A stretch of 64,000 bases of DNA, taken from Streptomyces sp. NBC_01353. GTDB lineage: Bacteria; Actinomycetota; Actinomycetes; Streptomycetales; Streptomycetaceae. Below are positions 25,360 to 35,562 of the stretch, piece by piece (position 1 is the stretch's first letter; each line of letters opens with the position of its first letter). The position numbers and the translations under genes are program-made. The stretch lies in contig NZ_CP108352.1 of NCBI RefSeq assembly GCF_036237275.1, positions 8,395,501-8,459,500 of the forward strand, read 5' to 3'. The notes below the pieces were generated by a model, which was not told the origin of the DNA, did not search any database, and saw only the letters and a program-made list of their open reading frames with translations.

Positions 25360-25927
25360 TAGCCGCCCGGGGCAGCGCTGGAGGTGCCCCGCAGGGGAGC
25401 GCCGGGCGGGCTCGCTGCTGCGCTGTTGGGCGACGCCCACGCCGATCGCCGGCCGGTCGAGCCGTGGGCCGGCGGGACGTGACTGCGCGCAGGACACCGA
25501 TCATGATTCGGGGCGCCCCACGGGTGATGCGCGGTGCGCCGAGGCGGGGCCGACGACCGGGCGACCCGGGCGGCACCAGAGGCGCTCTCCCACCTCCGCA
25601 GTGTGCTGGCCCAGGCCCGCTTCGTCGCGCGACGCGCCGGCCTGGACACATGTCCCCCACCGCGCCGACCACGTCGCCCTGCTCCTCGCCCGCGCACAGG
25701 TCCTCGACCCCGATCACGTCGTCTCCTGGGGCCTACCCACCGACCGCGCCATCGTCTCGAGGTGCGCTGGAGGGCCTGCGAACGGCTCGCCGCATGAAGC
25801 GCTTTCCCAGCCTCGCATCGGGCAATTGTGAACGCTGCACGTCACGCGTATGTCACGGGACTCAATATGCGAGACGCAGCCGGAAGAGACATTGACGTGT
25901 CCGTTTTTCGCTGCAAGCCTCTTGGCC
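25360..25927. other. Gene-poor stretch before the first leader peptide
   Basis: Short protein-like phrases appear in switching frames (for instance LSHLRSVLAQARFVARRAG near 25590 and VALLLARAQVLDPDHVVSW near 25680), suggesting a dead gene of unknown type. The last 100 bp (25820-25927) are lower in GC and probably hold the promoter for the sulfonate operon. Confidence 0.4.
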
Positions 25928-26011
25928 ATGAGCACGTCCGAGAACCTCGCCGCGCGGCTCCACGTCGACCTCCGACGCCAAGCCGGCGCCATCTGTTCCG
26001 TCGGTCGATAG
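25928..26011 (+). CDS. Sulfur-operon leader peptide 1 (27 aa)
   Basis: ATG at 25928, TAG at 26009. The peptide starts MSTSENLAARLHVDLRRQ and ends AGAICSVGR. The core RLHVDLRR...AIC is the pattern of the short actinobacterial peptides annotated as putative leader peptides ahead of sulfur assimilation and sulfonate transport genes. The Cys codon near the end suggests that ribosome stalling at low cysteinyl-tRNA controls the genes downstream. It lies 293 bp before ssuA. Small hairpins follow (26056-26115). The 33-aa peptide at 33730 shares the pattern. Confidence 0.8.
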   Translation: MSTSENLAARLHVDLRRQAGAICSVGR

Positions 26012-26055
26012 GCCGCCGAAGGCGCCTCTCTCCTGCTCTCTCCGCCGTGGATTGT

Positions 26056-26115
26056 CAGCTACCGCCGTGCCGCTGCGGTAACTGACCGGACTCCTCGCTG
26101 AATTACCAGGCGAGG
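26056..26115 (+). promoter_or_regulatory. Possible attenuator hairpins after leader 1
   Basis: CAGCTACCGC (26056-26065) can pair with GCGGTAACTG (26075-26084) with one mismatch. CCTCGC (26093-26098) pairs with GCGAGG (26110-26115). They lie between the leader stop and ssuA, as an attenuation model requires, but alternative foldings were not computed. Confidence 0.4.
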
Positions 26116-26304
26116 TTGTTCCTCTTCCGTCGTTCGGCGCCTGTCATGCTCTGCCCGAATCCTGGCGCACTGTCTCTGACCGGTCTTTCCCCATGCCGGA
26201 CAGCCCGCCTCTATGACAGTTCTCGCAACGTGCGCAGAAGAACTCGCAGAAGAACTCCGTAGAAACACACTCCAGCCGCTCCATCGAATGTGAACAGGAC
26301 TTCC

Positions 26305-27372
26305 ATGACTACGACGGCGTCGACGCGACGACAGTTCCTCACTCTGCTCGGTCTCTCCGCGGTCGCGGTTGGCTGCGGCACGACTGCAACGGGAGCCGCC
26401 GGCAAGGGCCAGACCCGGACGCTGCGGTATCAGGGCTGGGCAGGACAGGTCACCTTGCCGGAGCTGGCCGAGGACCTCGGCTATCTGGAGGATGTGAAGC
26501 TGGAGTGGGTCGGCAACACGATCAGCGGGCCGCAGGACATCCAGTCCGCGGCCACCGGGCAGACGGACTTCGGCGGTGCTTTCAACGGCGCGGTCGTCAA
26601 ACTGGCGGCGAACAAGACCCCCATCAAAGCTGTCATCAGCTACTACGGCTCCGACAAGCACGCCTACAACGGCTACTACGTTCTCAAGGACAGCCCGATC
26701 CGCTCCGCCCGCGATCTGACCGGCAAGAAGGTCGGGATGAACACCCTCGGAGCACACGCGGAGGCCATGCTCGACATCTATCTCCAGCGAGGCGGCCTGC
26801 CCCGGGCGGAGATCGACAAGGTCGAGCCTCTGGTGGTGCCTCCGGTGAACACAGAGCAGTCGCTGCGCCAGAGGCAGATCGACGTGGCCGTACTCGGCGG
26901 CATTCTGCGCGACAAGGCCCTGGCATCCGGGGGAATTCGGCCGCTCTTCACGGACTTCGACCTGCTCGGCGCCTTCAGCGCCGGCACCTACGTGATGACG
27001 GACCGCTTCCTCAAGCAGAACCCCGACACGGCCCGGACGTTCGTCACCGCGGTGGGGCGGGCCATCGAGTGGTCGCGCAGCACTCCGCATGCGGAGGTCA
27101 TCGCTCGGATGACGGAGATCGTGAAGAAGCGCGGACGCAACGAGGACACCACACCCTTGAAGTACTGGCGGTCCTACGGCGTCGCCGAGACGGCAGGCCG
27201 CATCACCGGCAAGGAACTCCAGCTCTGGATCGACTGGTTGGGCGAGCGCGGCGACATCCGGAAGGGCGAGGTCACATTGAGCGACCTCTACACCAATGAG
27301 TTCAACACCGCCGGTGGGGGCGGCACAGCACCCGCCTCACCGTCCTCCTCCGCTTCGACGAGCGGGAGCTGA
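26305..27372 (+). CDS. ssuA: Sulfonate-type ABC transporter substrate-binding lipoprotein
   Basis: 355 residues. The N-terminus has twin-Arg-like text (STRRQFLTLLGLSAV) and a lipobox AVGC, so it is a lipoprotein on the outer face of the membrane. The body is the SsuA/TauA/NMT1-like periplasmic-binding fold (LRYQGWAGQVTLPELAEDLGY, then ATGQTDFGGAFNGAVVKL and the region around KVGMNTLGAHAEAML). The last 20 residues are a Gly/Ser/Thr tail. The ATG at 26305 was chosen over the GTG at 26290 for its signal sequence. It is the first structural gene after leader 1 and lies 4 bp before ssuB. Ligand identity within the sulfonate class is not proven. Confidence 0.88.
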   Translation: MTTTASTRRQFLTLLGLSAVAVGCGTTATGAAGKGQTRTLRYQGWAGQVTLPELAEDLGYLEDVKLEWVGNTISGPQDIQSAATGQTDFGGAFNGAVVKLAANKTPIKAVISYYGSDKHAYNGYYVLKDSPIRSARDLTGKKVGMNTLGAHAEAMLDIYLQRGGLPRAEIDKVEPLVVPPVNTEQSLRQRQIDVAVLGGILRDKALASGGIRPLFTDFDLLGAFSAGTYVMTDRFLKQNPDTARTFVTAVGRAIEWSRSTPHAEVIARMTEIVKKRGRNEDTTPLKYWRSYGVAETAGRITGKELQLWIDWLGERGDIRKGEVTLSDLYTNEFNTAGGGGTAPASPSSSASTSGS

Positions 27373-27376
27373 TCCC

Positions 27377-28228
27377 ATGCCGGCATCCACCACACTCAAG
27401 ATCGTGTTCGAGGGCGTACGGAAGGTCTTCAAGGTCAAGGACTCGACAGCGAAGGGAGGTTCGGGCACAGGAAAGGCCACGGAGTTCACGGCCGTCGACG
27501 GCATCGACCTGGAGATAGCGGCGGGCGAGTTCGTCGTCCTGGTCGGCCCCAGCGGCTGCGGCAAGTCGACACTGCTGGATCTCCTCGGCGGCCTTGCCCG
27601 GCCCACCGGTGGACAAATCCTGCTGGACGGCGAACCCGTCACCGGTCCCGGCCTGAACCGCGGCATCGTCTTCCAGCAGTACGCCCTGCTGCCCTGGCGC
27701 ACAGCGCAGGGAAATGTCGAGTTCGGCCTGGAGGCCATCGGCGTACCACGCCGCGAACGGGTCGCACGGGCCCGGGAGTTCCTGGACCTTGTCGGCCTGT
27801 CCGGGTTCGAGAGCCGGCATCCGCATGAGCTGTCGGGCGGAATGCGGCAGCGGGTGGCGATCGCCCGCAGCCTCGCCTACGACCCGGACGTGCTGCTCAT
27901 GGACGAGCCATTCGCCGCGCTGGACGCCCAGACTCGTGAGTCGTTGCAGGACGAACTGCTCCGCATCTGGCAGCGCACCGGAAAGACCGTCGTCTTCATC
28001 ACGCACAGCATCGACGAAGCCGTCTACCTGGGACAGCGCGTCGCCGTCATGACGTCCAGGCCGGGCCGAATCAAGCAGATCGTGCCCGTCGCCCTCGACT
28101 CCCGCACCAGCACCGACGACATCCGTTCCAGCTCCGAGTTCGCACACCACCGGCACGAGATCTGGTCGCTGCTCCACGAAGAAGTGGCCAGAGCCCAGCA
28201 GTTGGAGAAGGAGGAGGCTTCCGTATGA
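27377..28228 (+). CDS. ssuB: Sulfonate-type ABC transporter ATP-binding protein
   Basis: 283 residues. Walker A is GPSGCGKST (57-65), the Q-loop is FQQYALLPW, the signature is LSGGMRQR (152-159), Walker B is VLLMDEP (172-178), and the switch His is in FITHSIDEA. It belongs to the nitrate/sulfonate/taurine subfamily. The N-terminus has an insert (KDSTAKGGSGTGKATE) before the first strand, longer than usual. It couples ATP hydrolysis to the permease SsuC, whose ATG overlaps its stop (ATGA). Confidence 0.92.
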   Translation: MPASTTLKIVFEGVRKVFKVKDSTAKGGSGTGKATEFTAVDGIDLEIAAGEFVVLVGPSGCGKSTLLDLLGGLARPTGGQILLDGEPVTGPGLNRGIVFQQYALLPWRTAQGNVEFGLEAIGVPRRERVARAREFLDLVGLSGFESRHPHELSGGMRQRVAIARSLAYDPDVLLMDEPFAALDAQTRESLQDELLRIWQRTGKTVVFITHSIDEAVYLGQRVAVMTSRPGRIKQIVPVALDSRTSTDDIRSSSEFAHHRHEIWSLLHEEVARAQQLEKEEASV

Positions 28229-29166
28229 GCCTCACGACCGGCACGTCCACCGAAGAGACTCACTCACCGGGACCGGCGAGCCTCGCCGAAGGCATCCACA
28301 CCCCCTCCCTCTCCTCGGCGGTGCCACCTTCGGTACCCTCTCCGCAGCCGCGCCGAGCCCCCGATCGAAAGGCCCGTGTCCACCGGGCGGCCCACCGACT
28401 GCTGTCCCTCCTGGCGGCCGGGGCCACCAATTCCGCGGCGATCGTGGCTCTGCTGCTGCTGTGGGAGACCGCGCCACGGCTCGGACTGGTCGACCGGACC
28501 TTCCTGCCGCCGTTCAGTGAGGTCGCTGCCGCCTGGTGGGCGCTGGCGGCCGACGGTCAACTCGCCGACAACACCTACGCCAGCCTGGTGCGCTCTTTCA
28601 GCGGATTCGGTCTGGCCCTGGCCGTCGCCGTACCCCTCGGTCTGCTGATCGGCTGGTACCGGCCTGTCGCCGCTCTGCTCGGTCCGCTGCTGGAGGTGTT
28701 CCGCAGTACCGCCGCGCTGGCCCTGCTCCCGGTCTTCGTCCTGCTGTTGGGCATCGGGGAGACCTCGAAGATCTCCATAGTGGTGTACGCGTGCACCTGG
28801 CCGATCCTGCTCAACACGATCAGCGCCGTACGCCATGTCGACCCCACGCTGCTGAAGCTCGCGAAGTCGATGGACCTGTCCACGCCCCGTCTGTTCCAGA
28901 AGGTGATCCTGCCGTCCGCCGTGCCGGTGATGTTCACCGGCGTCCGGCTGGCCGGGGCTGTGTCGATCCTGGTGCTGGTCGCCGCCGAGATGATCGGGGC
29001 GAAGGCGGGGCTCGGCTATCTGATCAACGCCTCGCAGTACAACTTCGCGATCCCGCAGATGTACGCGGGCATCATCACGATCTCCGCCATCGGCGTGACC
29101 TTCAACCAGCTCCTGGTGGCCGTGGAACGCCGGCTCAGTTCCTGGCGCGTGTCCGCCGACGACTGA
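28225..29166 (+). CDS. ssuC: Sulfonate-type ABC transporter permease
   Basis: 313 residues. A hydrophilic Pro/Ser-rich N-terminus of about 65 residues is followed by six membrane helices and the BPD-type loop that meets the ATPase (the EAA-like region around LKLAKSMDLSTPRLFQKVIL, then SILVLVAAEMIGAKAGLG). The start ATG overlaps the stop of ssuB by 4 bp, so translation is coupled. With SsuA and SsuB it makes a full importer. Confidence 0.92.
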   Translation: MSLTTGTSTEETHSPGPASLAEGIHTPSLSSAVPPSVPSPQPRRAPDRKARVHRAAHRLLSLLAAGATNSAAIVALLLLWETAPRLGLVDRTFLPPFSEVAAAWWALAADGQLADNTYASLVRSFSGFGLALAVAVPLGLLIGWYRPVAALLGPLLEVFRSTAALALLPVFVLLLGIGETSKISIVVYACTWPILLNTISAVRHVDPTLLKLAKSMDLSTPRLFQKVILPSAVPVMFTGVRLAGAVSILVLVAAEMIGAKAGLGYLINASQYNFAIPQMYAGIITISAIGVTFNQLLVAVERRLSSWRVSADD

Positions 29167-29226
29167 TCCCGTCGCCCCCAGCCTCGCTGCCCCGACGTCT
29201 CACCGCCCCCAGATCCGAGGAAGCTC

Positions 29227-30582
29227 ATGACCGCGACCAGCCCACGCCGACTGCATCTCAACGCCTTTCTGATGAACGCCGGCCATCATGACGCCGCCTG
29301 GCGCCACCCCCGTACCCAGCCCGAGCGGGTCACCGATCTGCGCTACTTCCAGCAGCTCGCCCAGACCGCCGAACGCGGTCTGCTCGACTCGGTGTTCCTC
29401 GCCGATGGTCTCGCCCTATGGGGTAACGCCCGGTACAACGCGCTCGGCGGCTTCGAGCCGCTCACCCTGCTTTCCGCGCTGGCGGCGGTCACCGAGCACG
29501 TCGGACTGATCGCCACCGTGTCCACCACCTTCAACGAGCCCTTCCATACGGCCCGCAAGTTCGCCTCTCTGGACCACATCAGCGGCGGCCGGGCCGGCTG
29601 GAACATCGTCACCTCCGGCACCGTGAACGAGGCCCGCAACTTCGGCCAGGACGAGCACCTGGAGCACCGGTTGCGCTACGAGCGGGCTCGGGAGTTCGTC
29701 GAAGTCGCCACCAAACTGTGGGACAGCTGGGAGGACGACGCGATCCTGCTCGACCGGGAGCGCGGTGTCTACGCGGACACCGACCGGGTGCGGGAGATCA
29801 ATCACCGCGGGGAGTCATTCGGGGTGCAGGGTCCGCTGAACGTTCCGCGCAGTCCGCAGGGCTACCCGCTGCTGGTCCAGGCCGGTTCGTCGGAGGACGG
29901 CAAGGAGTTCGCCGCCCAGTACGCCGAGGCCGTGTTCACCGCCCAGCAGTGCCTGGCCGACGGCCAGGCCTTCTACAAGGACCTCAAGTCCCGGCTTGCG
30001 CGTCACGGCCGCGCCGAGGACCAGCTGCTCGTACTTCCCGGTATCGCCCCCGTCATCGGCTCGACCGAGGCCGAGGCACGCGAGCTGGAGCGGGAGCTCA
30101 CGGAGCTGCAGATCCCCGAGTACGGGCTCGCCCAGCTGTCCGGGATGCTCGGCACCGACCTGACAGGGCTACCGCTGGACGGGCCACTGCCCGAGCTGCC
30201 AGAGGAGCGGGACATCAACGGCAACAAGAGCCGCTTCACGCTTGTCGCCGAACTGGGCCGCCGCGACGGCCTCACCTTGCGCGAGCTCATCGCCCGCCTC
30301 GGTGCCGGCCGCGGCCACCAGGTGCTCGCCGGTACCCCCGAGCAGATTGCCGACCAGATCCAGGAGTGGTTCACCCACGGCGCCGCCGACGGCTTCAACA
30401 TCATGCCGCCCCATCTGCCGGGCGGCCTGGAGGACTTCGTCGACCACGTCGTACCGATCCTGCAGCGCCGCGGCCTGTTCCGCACCGAATACACAGGCCG
30501 CACCCTGCGCGAACACTACGGCCTGACGCGCCCCGCCAACCGGCTGGCCGCGGCGGCCGCGGCAGAGGGACGGCACGCATGA
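29227..30582 (+). CDS. LLM-class flavin-dependent monooxygenase (NtaA/DmoA type)
   Basis: 451 residues, the length of the NtaA/SnaA/DszA/DmoA group. Diagnostic phrases are LHLNAFLMNAGHHDAAWRHP, then RGLLDSVFLADG, ATVSTTFNEPFHTARKF and SGGRAGWNIVTS. These enzymes use reduced FMN from a separate reductase to oxidise substrates including sulfides and sulfones. In this operon it probably cleaves a C-S bond of an imported organosulfur compound. No flavin reductase lies in the operon; the flavoprotein-ferredoxin pair downstream or the distant flavin reductase-like gene (13035) might serve. The stop overlaps the next ATG (ATGA). Confidence 0.88.
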   Translation: MTATSPRRLHLNAFLMNAGHHDAAWRHPRTQPERVTDLRYFQQLAQTAERGLLDSVFLADGLALWGNARYNALGGFEPLTLLSALAAVTEHVGLIATVSTTFNEPFHTARKFASLDHISGGRAGWNIVTSGTVNEARNFGQDEHLEHRLRYERAREFVEVATKLWDSWEDDAILLDRERGVYADTDRVREINHRGESFGVQGPLNVPRSPQGYPLLVQAGSSEDGKEFAAQYAEAVFTAQQCLADGQAFYKDLKSRLARHGRAEDQLLVLPGIAPVIGSTEAEARELERELTELQIPEYGLAQLSGMLGTDLTGLPLDGPLPELPEERDINGNKSRFTLVAELGRRDGLTLRELIARLGAGRGHQVLAGTPEQIADQIQEWFTHGAADGFNIMPPHLPGGLEDFVDHVVPILQRRGLFRTEYTGRTLREHYGLTRPANRLAAAAAAEGRHA

Positions 30583-32183
30583 CCGGGCTCGAAGTCACCA
30601 CGGACGTCCTGGTGGTCGGCGGCGGGCCCGCGGCGACGTGGGCCGCGCTCAAGGCGGCCCAGGCCGGGGCGGACGTGGTCCTCGCCGACAAGGGCTATTG
30701 CGGCACGAGCGGTGCGACCGCATCGAGTGGCACCGGAGTCTGGTACGTCCCGCCGGAGCCCGCCGCGCGCGAGGCCGCCATGGCGAGCCGGGAGGCACTG
30801 GGCGGGTTTCTCGCCGACCGGCGCTGGATGGCGCGGGTGCTGGACCAGACGTACGCGGGCATGAACGAGCTGGCGGCGGCCGGGCGCTATCCCTTCCCGG
30901 CAGGGCCGGACGGAAAGCAGCTCAGGAACGGCTTGCAGGGGCCGGAGTACATGCGCAGGATGCGGATCCGCGTCCAGCGGGCCGGGGCGTGCATCCTCGA
31001 CCACAGCCCGGTCACCGAGCTGCTCACCGATTCCTCCGGGGCCGTCGCCGGAGCCAGGGGACACCAGCGCCAGGCCGGGCAGCCGTACCGGGTGCGCGCC
31101 GGAGCGGTCGTTCTGGCCACTGGCGGCTGCGCGTTCCTCAGCGGTGCGCTGGGCTGCAACGTCAACACCGGCGACGGCGCGCTGTTCGCCGCCGAAGCGG
31201 GCGCGGAACTGTCTGGCATGGAGTTCTCCAACGCCTACGGCATCGCGCCCGAGGGCACCTCCGTCACCAAGACGGCGTTCTACTCCTTTGCGACCTTCTA
31301 CCGCGAGGACGACACGGTCCTGGAAGGCGCGGCCAGCCAGGGCGGCCGGTCCGTGATCGCGAGGACGCTGCTCAGCGAGAAGGTGTACTGCCGCCTGGAC
31401 CGGGCGGACTCGGCCGCCCGGCAGGCGATGCGGCTGGCGCAGCCGAACTTCTTCCTCACCTTCGACCGGCTCGGCATCGACCCCTTCACGCAGCGCTTCG
31501 CCGTCACACTGCTCGCTGAGGGCACCGTGCGCGGCACCGGCGGCATCCGCATCGCCGGCGACGACTGCTCCACCACCGTCCCGGGGCTGTACGCGGCCGG
31601 GGACGCCGCCACCCGTGAGCTGATCTGTGGTGGCTTCACCGGTGGTGGCAGCCACAACGCCGCGTGGGCCATCTCCTCCGGCACGTGGGCAGGTCAAGGC
31701 GCGGCCCGCCACGCCCTCGCGCTCGGCGTCCGTGCCGGTACGAGGCGCCTCGCGGCCGCGGGCGGAGCCGGGCTCCGGCCGACCGGCACTCCCGGCCCCG
31801 CCGACGGATTCCAGGACGTCGTCACCGCGGTCCAGGCCGAAGTGCTGCCGTACGAGAAGAACTATCTGCGCCACGGCGAGCAGCTCACCGCCTCACTGCG
31901 GGTGCTCGACAGCGTCTGGCAGGACCTGCGCGCCACGCTGCACGCCGAGGGCGGGGATGTGCTGCGGGCCCGGCAGGCGTCGGCGATGGCGGCGCACGCC
32001 CGCTGGATGTACGCCGCGGCGCTCGCCCGCACCGAGACCCGCGGCATGGCCAAGCGACTCGACTTCCCGACGCAGGATCCCCGGCAGCACCACCGCATCG
32101 TCACAGGCGGCCTCGACCGGGTGTGGACCCGGCCCGAGCCCCTGACAACCACACCGGACGTACCAATGGAGGTGGCTTCGTGA
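30579..32183 (+). CDS. FAD-dependent oxidoreductase, fumarate-reductase/AprA-like
   Basis: 534 residues. The FAD-binding Rossmann motif is LVVGGGPAATWAALKAAQAG (residues 11-30), followed by the GTSGATASSGTG loop. The second FAD contact is LYAAGDAATREL with CGGFTGGGSHNAAWA. The plan is that of the succinate dehydrogenase/fumarate reductase/APS reductase flavoprotein family, with a helical C-terminal domain (from about 400). It is translationally coupled to the LLM gene before it and to a 2x[4Fe-4S] protein after it, the arrangement of AprA-AprB. A role in electron supply or in oxidising or reducing the sulfur product is inferred from context; key AprA active-site residues were not checked. Confidence 0.82.
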   Translation: MTGLEVTTDVLVVGGGPAATWAALKAAQAGADVVLADKGYCGTSGATASSGTGVWYVPPEPAAREAAMASREALGGFLADRRWMARVLDQTYAGMNELAAAGRYPFPAGPDGKQLRNGLQGPEYMRRMRIRVQRAGACILDHSPVTELLTDSSGAVAGARGHQRQAGQPYRVRAGAVVLATGGCAFLSGALGCNVNTGDGALFAAEAGAELSGMEFSNAYGIAPEGTSVTKTAFYSFATFYREDDTVLEGAASQGGRSVIARTLLSEKVYCRLDRADSAARQAMRLAQPNFFLTFDRLGIDPFTQRFAVTLLAEGTVRGTGGIRIAGDDCSTTVPGLYAAGDAATRELICGGFTGGGSHNAAWAISSGTWAGQGAARHALALGVRAGTRRLAAAGGAGLRPTGTPGPADGFQDVVTAVQAEVLPYEKNYLRHGEQLTASLRVLDSVWQDLRATLHAEGGDVLRARQASAMAAHARWMYAAALARTETRGMAKRLDFPTQDPRQHHRIVTGGLDRVWTRPEPLTTTPDVPMEVAS

Positions 32184-32548
32184 TCGAACTGGTCTCGGCG
32201 GAACGCTGTATCACCTGCGACAAGTGCATCAGGGTCTGCCCCACCGACGTCTTCGACCGGGGTGCGGACGGCATCCCGGTGCTCGCCCGCCGCGACGACT
32301 GCCAGACCTGCTTCCAGTGCGAGGCGAACTGCCCGGCCGACGCGTTGTACGTCGCGCCCCAGACCCGCCCGCTGCCCGACGACCCCACCGCCCGCGACGA
32401 GGAGCACCTGGCCCGTACCGGCCTGCTCGGCAGCTATCGCCGCCACATCGGCTGGGGACACGGCCGCACACCCGGCGCGCTGCGAGCCGTCGGGCCTTCC
32501 CTCGGCCCACCAGGGGCCAAGGGCGCCTCACTGCCCATCACCTCCTGA
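32180..32548 (+). CDS. Dicluster [4Fe-4S] ferredoxin, AprB-like partner
   Basis: 122 residues from a GTG that overlaps the stop of the flavoprotein gene (GTGA). Two cluster-binding motifs are complete: CITCDKCIRVCP (about residues 10-21) and CQTCFQCEANCP (about 40-51). About 70 residues follow, including RRHIGWGHGRTPGALRAV, a tail that could wrap the flavoprotein as in AprB. It most likely takes or gives electrons to the FAD protein encoded next to it. Confidence 0.85.
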   Translation: MIELVSAERCITCDKCIRVCPTDVFDRGADGIPVLARRDDCQTCFQCEANCPADALYVAPQTRPLPDDPTARDEEHLARTGLLGSYRRHIGWGHGRTPGALRAVGPSLGPPGAKGASLPITS

Positions 32549-32572
32549 CCACCTCCCGAAGGGACCCCGCAC

Positions 32573-33472
32573 ATGACCACCAGCACCGGCTTCGACATCC
32601 GCAGGATCGGCGGCCGTATCGGCGCAGAGATCCTCGGCGTGGACCTCGGCGCCGAACTCGACCCCGCCGTCGTCACCGAGATCAACTCCGCGCTCCTGGA
32701 ACACAAGGCGCTCGTCTTCCGCGACCAGCAGCTCGACGACGCGGGCCAGCTCCGCTTCGCCTCCCTCTTCGGCGAGCTCACCACCGCGCACCCCACCGTG
32801 CCGTCCGTCGACGGCCAGCCCCAGATCCTGCCCGTCGACGGCGACGAGGGCATCCGCGCCAACCACTGGCACACGGATGTCACCTTCGTCCGTACGCCGC
32901 CGAAGGCATCCACACTGCGCAGCATCGTTGTCCCGCCCTACGGCGGCAACACCCTCATCGCCAACGCGGGCGCCGCGTACCGGGATCTGCCCGAGCCGCT
33001 GCGCGGGCTGGCCGACAAGCTATGGGCGGTACACACCAACGCCTACGACTACGCGGCCCCGAGGAGCGAGAAGGCTGCCGAGCACCGTAAGCGGTTCGTC
33101 TCCCGGAAGTACCGCACCGCCCACCCGGTCGTCCGGGTCCACCCCGAGACCGGGGAGCGCGGGCTGTTCGTCGGAGGCTTCGCCCAGAGCATCATCGGCC
33201 TCGACCCCTCCGACTCCCGCGACCTGCTGCGCATCTTCCAGTCGCACGTCACCCGCCCCGAGAACATCGTGCGCGTGGCGTGGAGGCCGGGCGACCTCGT
33301 CCTGTTCGACAACCGCATCACCCAGCACTACGCCCCCGACGACTACGGCGACCTGCCGCGCCTCCTGCACCGGGTGACCGTCGCGGGGGATGTCCCGGCC
33401 GGTGTCGACGGCATACTCAGCTACGTCATCGAGGGCGACGACGCCGCCCACTACACGCCGGCGGCGGGCTGA
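32573..33472 (+). CDS. TauD/TfdA-type Fe(II)/2-oxoglutarate dioxygenase
   Basis: 299 residues. The facial triad is H100-x-D102 (NHWHTDVTF) and H252 (NRITQHYA). The 2-oxoglutarate-binding Arg is in LLHRVTV (about 267). The N-terminus (IRRIGGRIGAEILGVDL) is typical of TauD. Members hydroxylate the carbon next to a sulfonate, sulfate ester or ether so that it breaks down; releasing sulfite or sulfate fits this operon. It is the last gene, 24 bp after the ferredoxin, and a strong hairpin follows at once. Confidence 0.9.
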   Translation: MTTSTGFDIRRIGGRIGAEILGVDLGAELDPAVVTEINSALLEHKALVFRDQQLDDAGQLRFASLFGELTTAHPTVPSVDGQPQILPVDGDEGIRANHWHTDVTFVRTPPKASTLRSIVVPPYGGNTLIANAGAAYRDLPEPLRGLADKLWAVHTNAYDYAAPRSEKAAEHRKRFVSRKYRTAHPVVRVHPETGERGLFVGGFAQSIIGLDPSDSRDLLRIFQSHVTRPENIVRVAWRPGDLVLFDNRITQHYAPDDYGDLPRLLHRVTVAGDVPAGVDGILSYVIEGDDAAHYTPAAG

Positions 33473-33478
33473 ACTCCG

Positions 33479-33520
33479 CCCTCGGCCGCCGGGCAGGTGT
33501 CCCTGCCCGGCGGCCGAGGG
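33479..33520. terminator. Terminator of the sulfur operon (19-bp perfect stem)
   Basis: The arm at 33479-33497 (starting CCCTCGGCCGCC) pairs base for base with 33502-33520 around the loop TGTC. It starts 6 bp after the dioxygenase stop. Confidence 0.9.
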
Positions 33521-33637
33521 CCACCCGCGACAGACACCGGCCGACGCCGTACCGCACCTCGCCGCGTCGCGGGGCGGATGGCCACGGGTTTCGAGCCCCC
33601 GCCACCAGCGGATTCTTACAAAGCGAGACACAACTGT

Positions 33638-33703
33638 CCATAATATGGGCATCCTCTTGAGGTAACGGCCGCCCTCGGTCACCATGCCTACCAACCCGGT
33701 GGG
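33638..33703 (+). promoter_or_regulatory. Promoter/operator candidates upstream of leader 2
   Basis: CCATAATATGG (33638-33648) is an inverted repeat with one central base. CCTACCAACCCGGTGGG (33687-33703) has matching half-sites (CC-ACC and GGT-GG) followed by AAAACTAGGG, 27 bp before the leader ATG. The second looks like an operator overlapping the promoter of the second sulfur locus. I saw no clear equivalent before leader 1. Confidence 0.4.
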
Positions 33704-33729
33704 AAAACTAGGGATAGGGAGAGGTGGCC

Positions 33730-33831
33730 ATGCGAACGCTGAACCACGCAGGTCGTCCGCTTCCCCTTCTAACCTCTCGCCGCCATATCGACCTCGGCCG
33801 TACGTCCAGCGCCATCTGTCAGCCTGTCTGA
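33730..33831 (+). CDS. Sulfur-operon leader peptide 2 (33 aa)
   Basis: ATG at 33730 after GGGAGAGGTGGCC, a strong ribosome site; TGA at 33829. The peptide opens MRTLNHAGRPLPLLTS and continues RRHIDLGRTSSAICQPV. The second half repeats the pattern of leader 1: basic residues, H-x-D-L, Arg, then A-I-C near the end. It lies 286 bp before the lone binding-protein gene. As in leader 1, the Cys codon a few codons before the stop is where shortage of charged tRNA-Cys would stall the ribosome. Confidence 0.8.
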   Translation: MRTLNHAGRPLPLLTSRRHIDLGRTSSAICQPV

Positions 33832-34117
33832 CCCTGGCCACAGAGCCGGCTCCACGGAGCGCACCCCTGCACTGACTGCCGCCCCGCCCTCCGTCGACCG
33901 GGAGCCCCGCATCTCCACGACCGCATGTCTTCGGGCGCGGCGTGGCATCGACCACGGCTCGACATGCACCTCCGCGGCATCCGACGCACACCAGCCTCTC
34001 AGCCGGCGACGGCGATCCCATCGCCGACGGCAGTGGGCGAATGCAGTGCATGCCGACGGCTTTGCGTCGCGCAAGTCCGTACCTCCCTGAACACCCATCC
34101 CGTGAAAGGGCACCTCC

Positions 34118-35221
34118 GTGTCTGCCGCAAGACCGCTCACCACCCTGCGCGCCATCGCCGTCACAGCGGCGCTTCCCCTCCTGCTCACCGCCTGCGGTTA
34201 CGGCTCCCAGGCCGACGACAGCAAGAAGACCGAGGTGGCCGCCGAGGGCGACAAGCTTTCCGCCGACACCGTCCGCATCGGCTACTTCCCGAACCTCACG
34301 CACGCCACGGCCCTCGTCGGCATCCAGGAAGGCCTGATCCAGAAGGAGCTCGGCGGCACCACGATCAAGCCGCAGACCTTCAACGCCGGCCCGTCCGAGA
34401 TCGAGGCGCTCAACGGCGGCTCACTCGACATCGGCTTCATCGGCCCCTCCCCGTCCATCAACGGCTACGTCAAGTCCAAGGGCAAGAACCTGCGGATCGT
34501 CTCCGGCTCCGCATCCGGTGGCGTGAAGCTCGTCGTCAACCCGGACAAGATCAAGACCCTCGATGACCTCAAGGGCAAGAAGATCGCCACTCCGCAGAAG
34601 GGCAACACCCAGGACGTCGCGTTCCTCAACTGGATCTCGGAGAAGGGCTGGAAGGTCGACTCCGAGAGCGGCAAGGGCGATGTCTCCGTGGTCCGCAGCG
34701 ACAACAAGGTGACCCCCAACGCGTACAAGTCCGGGTCGATCGACGGCGCCTGGGTACCGGAGCCGACCGCGTCCAAGCTGGTCAGCGAGGGCGGGAAGGT
34801 CCTCCTCGACGAGTCCACGCTGTGGCGCGACAAGAAGTTTGTGATCACGAACATCATCGTGTCGCAGACCTTCCTGAAGGAACACCCGGACGTGGTCGAA
34901 GCCGTGCTGCGCGGCACGGTGAAGACCAACGCGTGGATCAACTCCAACCCGGACAAGGCCAAGGCGTCGGCCAACGCCGCCCTGAAGGCCGAGACCGGCA
35001 AGGAGCTCGCCGCCGAGGTCATCGCCCCGGCTTGGCCGAGCATCCAGATCACCGACGACCCGCTGGCCGCCACCCTGAAGACGCAGGCCGACCACGCGGT
35101 CAAGACCGGTCTACTCAAGGAGCCCGACCTCAACGGCATCTACGACCTGACGCTTCTCAACAAGGTGCTGACGGCCGCCGGCAAGCCCGAGGTCTCCGAC
35201 GCCGGTCTCGGCGCCAAGTAA
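34118..35221 (+). CDS. Orphan sulfonate/taurine-type ABC substrate-binding lipoprotein
   Basis: 367 residues from a GTG. The signal sequence ends in the lipobox LTAC (ALPLLLTACGYGSQ). The body is the SsuA/TauA type (VRIGYFPNLTHATALVGIQ, then FNAGPSEIEALNGGSLDIGF and VVNPDKIKTLDDLKGKKIA). Such genes normally head an operon with ATPase and permease genes; here a terminator lies 80 bp after the stop and no transporter genes follow. It may use the SsuBC proteins encoded 6 kb upstream, or have lost its partners when the region to the right was rearranged. Leader 2 controls it. Confidence 0.88.
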   Translation: MSAARPLTTLRAIAVTAALPLLLTACGYGSQADDSKKTEVAAEGDKLSADTVRIGYFPNLTHATALVGIQEGLIQKELGGTTIKPQTFNAGPSEIEALNGGSLDIGFIGPSPSINGYVKSKGKNLRIVSGSASGGVKLVVNPDKIKTLDDLKGKKIATPQKGNTQDVAFLNWISEKGWKVDSESGKGDVSVVRSDNKVTPNAYKSGSIDGAWVPEPTASKLVSEGGKVLLDESTLWRDKKFVITNIIVSQTFLKEHPDVVEAVLRGTVKTNAWINSNPDKAKASANAALKAETGKELAAEVIAPAWPSIQITDDPLAATLKTQADHAVKTGLLKEPDLNGIYDLTLLNKVLTAAGKPEVSDAGLGAK

Positions 35222-35301
35222 GCGCGCACGTACCACAGTTCGGCCTCGAGGGGCCCTGGCCCACTTCTTCACAGTGGGCCAACCTCCCGCGCCGACATGA
35301 G

Positions 35302-35335
35302 AGAGGCCGTTGCGGAACACTCCGCAACGGCCTCT
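35302..35335. terminator. Terminator after the orphan binding protein (15-bp stem)
   Basis: AGAGGCCGTTGCGGA (35302-35316) pairs perfectly with TCCGCAACGGCCTCT (35321-35335) around the loop ACAC. It serves the binding-protein gene and perhaps the facing remnant. Confidence 0.9.
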
Positions 35336-35355
35336 TCCCATGAGGGCGGACGGCG

Positions 35356-35562
35356 CTACGCGGAGTCGGCGGCCACTCGGAACCCGATGTTGCCGGTCGA
35401 GCTGTCGGGTGTGTTGGAGCTGCGGGCGCCCACCCGGTAGCGGTTGCAATAGGAGTCGTGGCACAGGTACGAGCCGCCGCGCATCGCCCGAGAGGTCTCC
35501 TCGCCGGCGGCAAACCAGTCCGCGCAAAACTGATCCCAGCTCGTCCGGCACATGGCCGACAT
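35356..35562 (-). pseudogene. Formylglycine-generating enzyme, C-terminal remnant
   Basis: The minus strand encodes [19 protein letters not shown], then [18 protein letters not shown], the highly conserved C-terminus of the sulfatase-modifying factor (FGE) family, including both active-site Cys positions (LCHDSYC). The 68-residue frame begins inside the domain (WDQFCADWF); a stretch between ADWF and MRGGS is missing and the N-terminal 200 residues are gone. FGE converts a Cys of sulfatases to formylglycine, so a sulfatase gene may once have stood here. Confidence 0.8.

Follow-up and report, generated by a model that had tools for sequence, protein, structure and literature searches.

The window, a stretch of 64,000 nt, carries two short open reading frames (ORFs) on its + strand. 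Leader ORF 1 (25928..26011) encodes 27 aa (MSTSENLAARLHVDLRRQAGAICSVGR) and leader ORF 2 (33730..33831) encodes 33 aa (MRTLNHAGRPLPLLTSRRHIDLGRTSSAICQPV), each followed by a stop codon. Both frames had been proposed in a first-pass annotation and were confirmed from the sequence and its translation. They share the motif RxHxDLxR and then AIC, as that annotation had noted, and the spacing from the first arginine (R0) to the cysteine (Cys13, at column 13) is equal. The candidate sensor codon for this cysteine, read from the sequence and weighed with codon counts in relatives, is TGT in both (+ strand, 25994..25996 in leader 1 and 33817..33819 in leader 2). Each leader contains this one Cys codon and no contiguous run. 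The distance from the leader stop to the gene start used was 293 nt for leader 1 (ATG, 26305) and 286 nt for leader 2 (GTG, 34118), in agreement with the "about 290 bp" given before.

The NCBIfam model NF042934 (cis_reg_atten, "putative leader peptide") matched leader 1 with 30.0 bits and leader 2 with 35.2 bits, and the E-values in a whole-genome search were 2.1e-5 and 2.9e-7, respectively. Because both scores exceed the curated cut-off of 27, the resemblance is more than chance. The matches cover model positions 3–19 and 1–19 of 19 and end on Cys. The scores against NF042933 and NF042936, models that go with the poly-cysteine short ORFs of mycobacteria, were far below their cut-offs, the Pfam search of the two peptides found no family, and Rfam (riboswitch, T-box) gave no match at gathering score in the whole 64-kb window. 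Both short ORFs are real members of the known leader-peptide family NF042934.

Seven genes on the + strand stand behind leader 1. The first encodes a substrate-binding protein (NMT1/SsuA-like, 26305..27372), followed by an ABC transporter ATPase (27377..28228) that is of taurine/nitrate type by its best matches, those listed all being below cut-off, and an ABC transporter permease with profile matches (28225..29166). An NtaA/DmoA-family FMN-dependent monooxygenase (29227..30582; TIGR03860, 595.7 bits, over cut-off), a FAD flavoprotein of the fumarate reductase/L-aspartate oxidase type (30588..32183; start uncertain, NCBIfam matches listed below cut-off), a 4Fe-4S ferredoxin-like gene (32180..32548; start uncertain, within frame 31664-32548) and a TauD-family dioxygenase (32573..33472; PF02668, 210.1 bits) complete the set. 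The unit of leader 2 is one gene on the + strand, encoding an SsuA-family aliphatic sulfonate binding protein (34118..35221; TIGR01728, 205.1 bits, cut-off 163.5). The two units had been described as sulfonate-uptake loci, and this description stood in part. Leader 2 does lie before an SsuA gene, but that gene is alone and is not a whole uptake locus. The first binding protein behind leader 1 matched the SsuA model weakly (61.3 bits, below the cut-off of 163.5), yet the predicted content of its operon fits organosulfur use.

About 15 units of the NF042934 type were found in this genome, the window pair included, so the pair is not the special two-unit arrangement that had been suggested. Five weak matches (L015, L017-L020) fall within different and mostly long frames and are not part of this count. 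At least seven of the 15 units have a clear sulfur gene behind them. These are a gene of the sulfatase family, cysteine dioxygenase, a ThiS/CysO-like gene with a cysteine-synthase-type gene, sulfite reductase, rhodanese and the genes of the two window loci. The genes behind the other eight have no clear tie to cysteine, and a ROK-family gene is also among the leader-preceded genes. The family is common in one class of actinobacteria, where it was present in 199 of 296 sampled genomes and in 79 of 114 genera. The leader sets analysed below consist of the listed, mostly best-scoring, matches and of loci reached via the binding proteins, and are no random sample. Two short regex matches without the remaining motif (L021, L114) were dropped. 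Four leaders missed by the motif expression (L111, L113, L163, L243) were added afterwards; the nonredundant counts, p-values and logos exclude them.

The upstream regions of homologous binding-protein genes were searched for the motif over up to 1.5 kb, less at contig ends (e.g., locus L050). With the window's own copy counted, a simple motif search found leader 1 upstream of 6/16 homologues of its gene and leader 2 upstream of 15/30 fetched homologues; none was found before the remaining 10 and 15 genes. The six motif-bearing homologues of the first gene all had at least 75% identity, and the ten motif-less ones had 73–74%. In the ORF core, differences from the window copy were mainly synonymous, with 24 synonymous and 8 nonsynonymous in five comparisons for leader 1 and 70 and 20 in 14 comparisons for leader 2. 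Over the whole ORF the synonymous excess was small for leader 1 (34/27) and absent for leader 2 (114/134). Identity falls past the stop codon, from 0.82 to 0.40 for leader 1 and from 0.76 to 0.33 for leader 2.

The Cys codon and the short ORF, whose lack of conservation in relatives would have counted as a refutation in the first-pass annotation, proved to be conserved. Among the matches listed, Cys13 was present in 223/226 leaders (219/222 before the four missed leaders were added), a share that the search inflates because the NF042934 model ends in Cys. TGT made up 220/223 of these Cys13 codons (218/219 before the addition), and codon choice is free of this inflation: the model holds residues only, and neither the UGU codon nor the pyrimidine after it can belong to it. 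In the nonredundant set of 78 leaders, the Cys13 codon was TGT in 74 and TGC in 1, whereas TGT accounts for 12.0% of ordinary Cys codons in this genome (45/375, 145 gene calls; p 5e-67 for the excess). The remaining Cys codons of the same 78 peptides, from the motif onward, were TGC 58 times and TGT 11 times. Leaders reached via the downstream gene, where no Cys was demanded, had TGT in 6/6 and 15/15 cases. Three leaders have TGC at column 13 (L237, L111, L113); L111 and L113 come from one genus, have extra Cys codons and both carry TGT at column 11. Cys13 is not indispensable everywhere, because three leaders lack it (two TGA, one AGT). This genome has Cys13-less leaders before CysO/CysM (L004) and before a GST-like gene (L009).

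Two tRNA-Cys genes were found, both with the anticodon GCA, and a pattern search of the genome found none with ACA. Since GCA is the sole tRNA-Cys anticodon found, UGU would be read by a wobble pair. The near-fixed codon raises the question of why one synonymous codon is kept. Three candidate general causes were tested and gained no support. Local folding around the codon was not above that of shuffled sequences (mean z -0.13, 129 leaders), and the hairpins noticed by eye did not exceed what shuffling produces. An ACA beside the downstream Shine-Dalgarno sequence, with which UGU could pair, was seen in 9/32 groups vs 17% of 135 controls (p 0.12). Shared complementary words downstream were mostly Shine-Dalgarno-like (AGGAGA, AGGACA), with others such as CGTACC. 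Among the papers listed in literature searches we recognised no report of UGU fixation or of these Streptomyces leaders, which Canestrari et al. 2020 may mention.

We consider it probable, at roughly four chances in five, that the two ORFs encode cis-acting leader peptides of the actinomycete cysteine-attenuator family (NF042934), in which ribosome stalling at UGU controls organosulfur genes. Cysteine supply would probably be read through the stalled ribosome; we infer translation, stalling, the response and its direction from conservation and from analogy with related systems. A ribosome on the leader would meet the single UGU at a fixed distance past RxHxDLxR. When Cys-tRNA is plentiful, the ribosome would pass, terminate and be released, and the organosulfur genes would stay low. 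When Cys-tRNA is scarce, it would stall at UGU and the organosulfur genes would be expressed. About 15 loci in one Streptomyces-like genome would thereby come under a shared sensor, with no regulator protein required.

Canestrari et al., in 2020, reportedly described cysteine-responsive attenuation by poly-cysteine leaderless short ORFs of mycobacteria. This work on poly-cysteine ORFs is cited in PMC9094748, PMC9031893 and PMC13236596. Poly-Cys leaders fetched from a single genus (LTKRRAVDLCRVAGCCCCCC...) align with the rhodanese leader LTKRRAVDLCRVAAMLC of this genome, and their RxHxDLxR block and its distance to UGU are identical to those of the family here. The protein start downstream of one of them (L098) resembles that of our rhodanese unit (L008). 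According to Shell 2015 (PMC4633059), Cys-rich leader ORFs precede cysA2/Msmeg_5788, Rv0485/Msmeg_0932 and nirA/Msmeg_4527, and ribosome occupancy was reported for the cysA2/Msmeg_5788 leader ORF in M. smegmatis. Corresponding genes have leaders here, namely the rhodanese, the ROK-family gene and sulfite reductase. The window leaders differ from the mycobacterial poly-Cys attenuators in having one Cys and not a run, in that leader 2 does not look leaderless, and in that masking of the ribosome binding site (RBS) is unsupported at the window loci. The earlier reading of control by cysteine supply was largely right, and of a kind already known, because the cysteine-run mycobacterial relatives are published cysteine-responsive attenuators; family membership and the near-fixed Cys codon favour it as well, but the two-unit arrangement in which it was framed did not stand.

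The untranslated spacers (26012..26304 and 33832..34117, + strand) are rich in C and poor in G: C 37% and G 25% over 26012-26290, and C 43% and G 28% over 33832-34100. The family mean of C minus G was +0.193 (30 groups), compared with +0.020 (sd 0.085) for 99 ordinary 5′ gaps; the window spacers, at +0.12 and +0.15, are moderately higher, 1.2–1.5 sd above this control. Base composition by itself is no demonstration of Rho action. A simple consensus scan, which is not exhaustive and overlooked an inverted repeat behind ssuA, picked up no terminator-like sequence across 25700-26400 or, for the + strand, across 33450-35400. That 15-bp inverted repeat lies 3′ of ssuA at 35302-35335 and was seen by eye. 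Folding of each leader region, much as the first-pass annotation had proposed, showed no excess structure (z -0.39 for 25928-26320 and +1.20 for 33692-34135), and Shine-Dalgarno sequestration was unconvincing at both loci. At both window loci, our preferred output step is control of transcription by a Rho-type mechanism, acting along the spacer with its high C and low G content. Seliverstov et al. (2005; PMC1262725) predicted terminator-less cysteine leader peptides in Actinobacteria and suggested Rho. As here, those leaders have Cys codons near the stop and no conserved terminator; the cases described in the available text are Cys codon runs in Mycobacterium, Propionibacterium and Bifidobacterium, as opposed to single-Cys leaders of Streptomyces.

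In some of the other units, masking of the gene's Shine-Dalgarno sequence by the leader may take its place. Translation attenuation as published for mycobacteria, in which leader bases around the Cys codon form pairs with the RBS of the following gene and a stalled ribosome frees it, is a possibility that we hold at somewhat less than even; it is a variant of the leader-attenuation reading at the output step, and the odds of the two overlap. Own leader/Shine-Dalgarno pairs had a lower pairing energy than swapped pairs (-15.0 vs -13.5 kcal/mol, permutation p 0.0015) overall, in a test that used 22 of 32 groups, namely eight groups and 14 hand-picked single loci, with ten single loci omitted. 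The gene-start predictor misplaced several genes; the CysO and first-binding-protein groups were corrected by rule and the others kept. The predicted starts of L118 and L156 look wrong and were left uncorrected in this test. Individual pairings are also suggestive, such as 9 bp of GUCCUUCCG/CGGAAGGAC in unit L012 and 8 bp of CCGUCCUG/CAGGACGG in 8/16 cysteine-dioxygenase loci. In the window, leader 1 can form UCUGUUC/GAACAGG (6 pairs and one G-U), and 4/5 of its orthologues can form UCUGU/ACAGG (4 and one G-U). GGAC was present at the downstream RBS in the majority of members in 11/32 groups, against 10% of 135 controls (p 0.0017). However, the longest complementary runs of own leader/RBS pairs were not enriched overall over the null, and the window groups were unremarkable (ranks 16 for leader 1 and 12 for leader 2 of 22). 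Moreover, the longest Watson-Crick run of leader 2 is four, and a spacer of some 290 nt is rather long if the leader is to mask the RBS directly.

The motif itself may contribute to stalling. In the aligned leaders, the R, D and R of the motif are kept in several synonymous codons, and selection therefore acts at the protein level. These residues could form a nascent-chain arrest peptide, with RxHxDLxR in the ribosome tunnel and with cysteine, redox state or termination as the signal in place of plain codon starvation. We regard this as less likely than not, and it can be combined with leader attenuation. Besides the synonymous codons, Leu at L-3 was found in 75/78 leaders at a position left free in the motif expression, and R occupied columns 0 and 7 in all 93 leaders although the second expression permitted K. 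The four leaders missed by the expression still carry R0, D4 and R7, and spacing to Cys13 was constant in 219/222; a pure codon counter requires none of these features. On the other hand, the first expression required R0, D4 and R7, and their presence also raises the NF042934 score, which makes their invariance partly one of construction, and a residue role alone would not fix UGU over UGC. The poly-Cys relatives also answer cysteine limitation, according to the published work as it is cited elsewhere. We tentatively propose a combined sensor, for which we would not claim even odds: RxHxDLxR, at its fixed distance, would prime stalling at one Cys codon, UGU followed by a pyrimidine would be the slowest reading by the GCA anticodon, and the codon, beyond the amino acid that it specifies, would be under near-absolute selection throughout the class. 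If so, one codon would stand in for the usual run of control codons.

Attenuation through alternative terminator and antiterminator hairpins is the usual mode for amino-acid operon leader peptides. At these loci it is very improbable, given the terminator scan of the + strand and the folding values above. PMC1262725 does predict trp, ilv and leuS cases in Streptomyces, but conserved terminator hairpins are likewise unseen behind the mycobacterial cys leaders treated there. The uORFC-8-2 leader of cysS in Rhodobacterales (PMC8632094) is likewise short with conserved Cys codons, and ribosome-mediated attenuation was proposed for it; it has two tandem Cys codons, mostly UGC, and an intrinsic terminator, whereas the leaders here have UGU and a terminator was not found. 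Eight leader peptides appear in the reannotation of S. lividans, with no assignment to cysteine among them in the available text (PMC8079986).

Upstream of leader 1, a putative promoter was read by eye at 25892..25920 (+), with TTGACG, 17 nt, AAGCCT and 7 nt to the start codon. TTGAC is present in 6/6 aligned loci and the start codon in aligned orthologues is ATG or GTG; a consensus promoter scan listed nothing promoter-like at this site. From this spacing, the mRNA of leader 1 looks leaderless. Leader 2 is preceded by the Shine-Dalgarno-like AGAGGTGG and does not look leaderless. Further upstream is an element (33657..33712, +) conserved in 15 aligned loci, which contains TTGAGG, 17 nt and CACCAT, and after these an inverted repeat CCTACC-aaccc-GGTGGG and AAAACTAGG. 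Our reading of TTGAGG/CACCAT is a putative promoter; the consensus scan lists another promoter-like site nearby (CTTACA/CATAAT, 33615-33644). The element may resemble Rrf2/CymR operators, and a genome search gave no second copy. That ordinary transcription-factor control acts here and the short ORFs are incidental is hardly credible, since the ORFs are conserved at codon and residue level in a family of such spread, although this single element with its inverted repeat speaks for such control, as does the regulator NdgR of S. coelicolor, which binds in front of cysA and cysM and of the cysI-cysN group (PMC4340878), and a factor may coexist with the leader layer. The different starts of the two leaders and the element before leader 2 are the only hint of the "two separately tuned units" proposed earlier, a claim that is unsupported in that form. 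Across the family, a TTGACA-like hexamer (at least 5 of 6 positions) occurred at the leaderless distance in 25/76 cases, compared with 6/76 at a control distance.

The short ORFs at 25928..26011 (leader 1, 27 aa) and 33730..33831 (leader 2, 33 aa) were confirmed exactly at the positions given by the first-pass annotation. Both peptides exceeded the cut-off of the NCBIfam family NF042934. A Pfam search gave no match for either peptide, and an Rfam search gave no match in the 64-kb window. Leader 1 is located upstream of a binding-protein gene, followed by an ABC ATPase and a permease. Its locus further contains an NtaA/DmoA-type FMN monooxygenase, an FAD protein of the fumarate reductase/L-aspartate oxidase type, a ferredoxin-like gene, and TauD. 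Leader 2 is followed by a single SsuA gene and then by a perfect 15-bp inverted repeat (35302-35335), which was spotted by eye. Another SsuA copy is located at C1:1948570 of the same genome, approximately 6 kb beyond a further NF042934-family leader (C1:1942732).

The genome contained 21 NF042934 matches at E up to 1, of which 8 were above the cut-off, and 15 were examined as leaders. Columns are counted from the first Arg of RxHxDLxR (R0), and 13 of the 15 had Cys at column 13. The first genes behind them are the binding-protein gene (leader 1), the SsuA gene (leader 2), and genes for a sulfatase family protein, cysteine dioxygenase, a ThiS/CysO-like protein with a PALP enzyme, sulfite reductase, an ABC permease, rhodanese, a GST-like protein, an SDF symporter, flavin reductase, a luciferase-like monooxygenase, a ROK protein, a 2OG-Fe oxygenase, and DUF1684. 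Matches were present in 61/61 genomes sampled from the genus, 199/296 genomes (79/114 genera) sampled from the class, 19/296 genomes of the phylum-wide sample, and 59/60 genomes of one genus having poly-Cys leaders.

The ROK-family gene of this genome is preceded by leader L013, and Rv0485 of mycobacteria is a ROK regulator. Cysteine-responsive control by the poly-Cys relatives is supported in excerpts of PMC9031893, PMC9094748, and PMC13236596, which cite Canestrari 2020. In the relevant passages of Shell 2015 (PMC4633059), Cys-rich leader ORFs of the poly-Cys type precede cysA2, Rv0485, and nirA in mycobacteria; leaders of this genome precede rhodanese, ROK, and sulfite reductase genes. Given these published relatives and matching downstream genes, leaders 1 and 2 are single-Cys members of a known leader kind.

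After removal of two spurious matches from the first set, 129 + 93 leaders, a non-random sample, were aligned without gaps on the motif. Cys occupied column 13 in 219/222, encoded by TGT in 218 and by TGC in L237 alone; at this column the three leaders without Cys had TGA (two) or AGT (one). A re-check for leaders missed by the motif expression added four, with TGT in L163 and L243 and TGC in L111 and L113 of one genus. The late Cys codon, whose conservation in relatives had been put forward as a check, is thus TGT in 220/223 Cys13 leaders. Among 78 nonredundant leaders (<80% core identity; the four late additions left out), column 13 was TGT in 74 and TGC in one. TGT makes up 12.0% (45/375) of the Cys codons in 145 gene calls of this genome, 12.8% with looser gene calls, and 5.3% (7/133) in genes downstream of leaders. 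The searches were run on protein and therefore introduced no codon bias. The remaining Cys codons from the motif onward in the nonredundant leaders were TGC (58) and TGT (11). In poly-Cys leaders of the second set (93), a Cys at column 12 was encoded by TGC except in L177, and column 13 was TGT. The base after the column-13 codon was C or T in 73/78 (first-codon-base background 39.5%, p 6e-24).

R0, D4, and R7 were found in 78/78 nonredundant leaders, although the first motif expression required them and NF042934 rewards them. A second expression would also have accepted K at column 0 or 7, yet all 93 of its leaders had R there. The four leaders missed by the expression also retain all three residues. 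L-3, a position not required, was Leu in 75/78. Several codons encode each of these kept residues. Taken together, the block therefore seems to be under selection at the protein level; a sensor that only counts codons would have no need of this. A pattern search found two tRNA-Cys genes, both with the anticodon GCA, and nothing with ACA; UGU is therefore a wobble codon. In general, UGU would be read slowly, and more so ahead of a pyrimidine. The boldest proposal is therefore a sensor that combines the nascent-peptide motif with the slow codon.

The simple motif was present upstream of 6/16 homologues of the gene of leader 1 and 15/30 of that of leader 2, window copies included. In the 6 and 15 aligned loci, core changes fell mainly on synonymous sites (synonymous/nonsynonymous 24/8 and 70/20), and identity collapsed past the leader stop codon. 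The leader 1 start is ATG or GTG at one fixed position, 7 nt downstream of a poor -10-like hexamer with TTGAC further upstream, a predicted layout as for a leaderless mRNA. Leader 2 is preceded by a Shine-Dalgarno-like stretch and a conserved element (33657-33712) with the inverted repeat CCTACC-N5-GGTGGG plus AAAACTAGG. This putative element looks like an operator, overlaps the inferred transcription start, and has no further copy in the genome. Of the nonredundant leaders, 76 could be evaluated: 25 had a good -35-like hexamer at the leaderless distance, versus 6 at a control distance, and 15 had a Shine-Dalgarno-like word ahead of the chosen start.

A scan for terminator-like sites found none at either window locus, and folding at the leaders showed no excess over expectation. 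Leaders paired better with their own downstream ribosome-binding site (RBS) than with swapped ones in a comparison covering 22 of the 32 groups (p 0.0015), which was not seen in the two window groups; the longest complementary runs were not enriched overall. Strong pairing occurred in other units (9 bp in L012; 8 bp in 8/16 cysteine dioxygenase loci). GGAC was enriched at the downstream RBS (11/32 groups vs 10% of 135 controls, p 0.0017), and ACA was not significantly so (9/32 vs 17%, p 0.12). The leader-to-gene spacer was C-rich and G-poor: C minus G averaged +0.193 in 30 groups, compared with a mean of +0.020 (sd 0.085) for 99 ordinary 5′ gaps. In 29/30 groups it exceeded the value upstream of the leader; the two window spacers were shifted only moderately. 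As far as composition goes, this would fit Rho loading. Rho was proposed for mycobacterial cys operons by Seliverstov et al. (excerpt of PMC1262725).

The S. lividans metL leader before metNIQ was read by its authors as methionine-dependent (PMC8079986, Table 4). In the same table, the terminal part of this leader (RCMCRRMC) holds three Cys, which makes cysteine a possible candidate signal there. Ser at column 10 was AGC/AGT in 50/59 nonredundant leaders, whereas in ordinary genes these two account for ~26% of the Ser codons, and Ser at column 9 was mostly TCC (25/31, first 129 leaders). The tRNA-Cys(GCA)-like gene at L270:1489-1561 (own-genome contig G000:C1, near 5404663) is divergent and does not encode its CCA end, and the other tRNA-Cys gene lies in L271. 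The CysO-CysM leader of this genome (L004, 1501-1557) has TGA for TGT at the sensor position, so its peptide stops at column 13; TGT is retained in the remaining sampled leaders of this group. L111 and L113 (genus g4; LMLTRRRTVDLCRLGGCCCLCR) have a shifted codon pattern, in which column 11 is TGT and the next two columns (12 and 13) are TGC. In L103, the leader end GCCATCTGTCGGTGACCCCGCTCCGCGTCAC recurs almost immediately after the leader (~1545-1615), so that the region around the UGU is duplicated in tandem.
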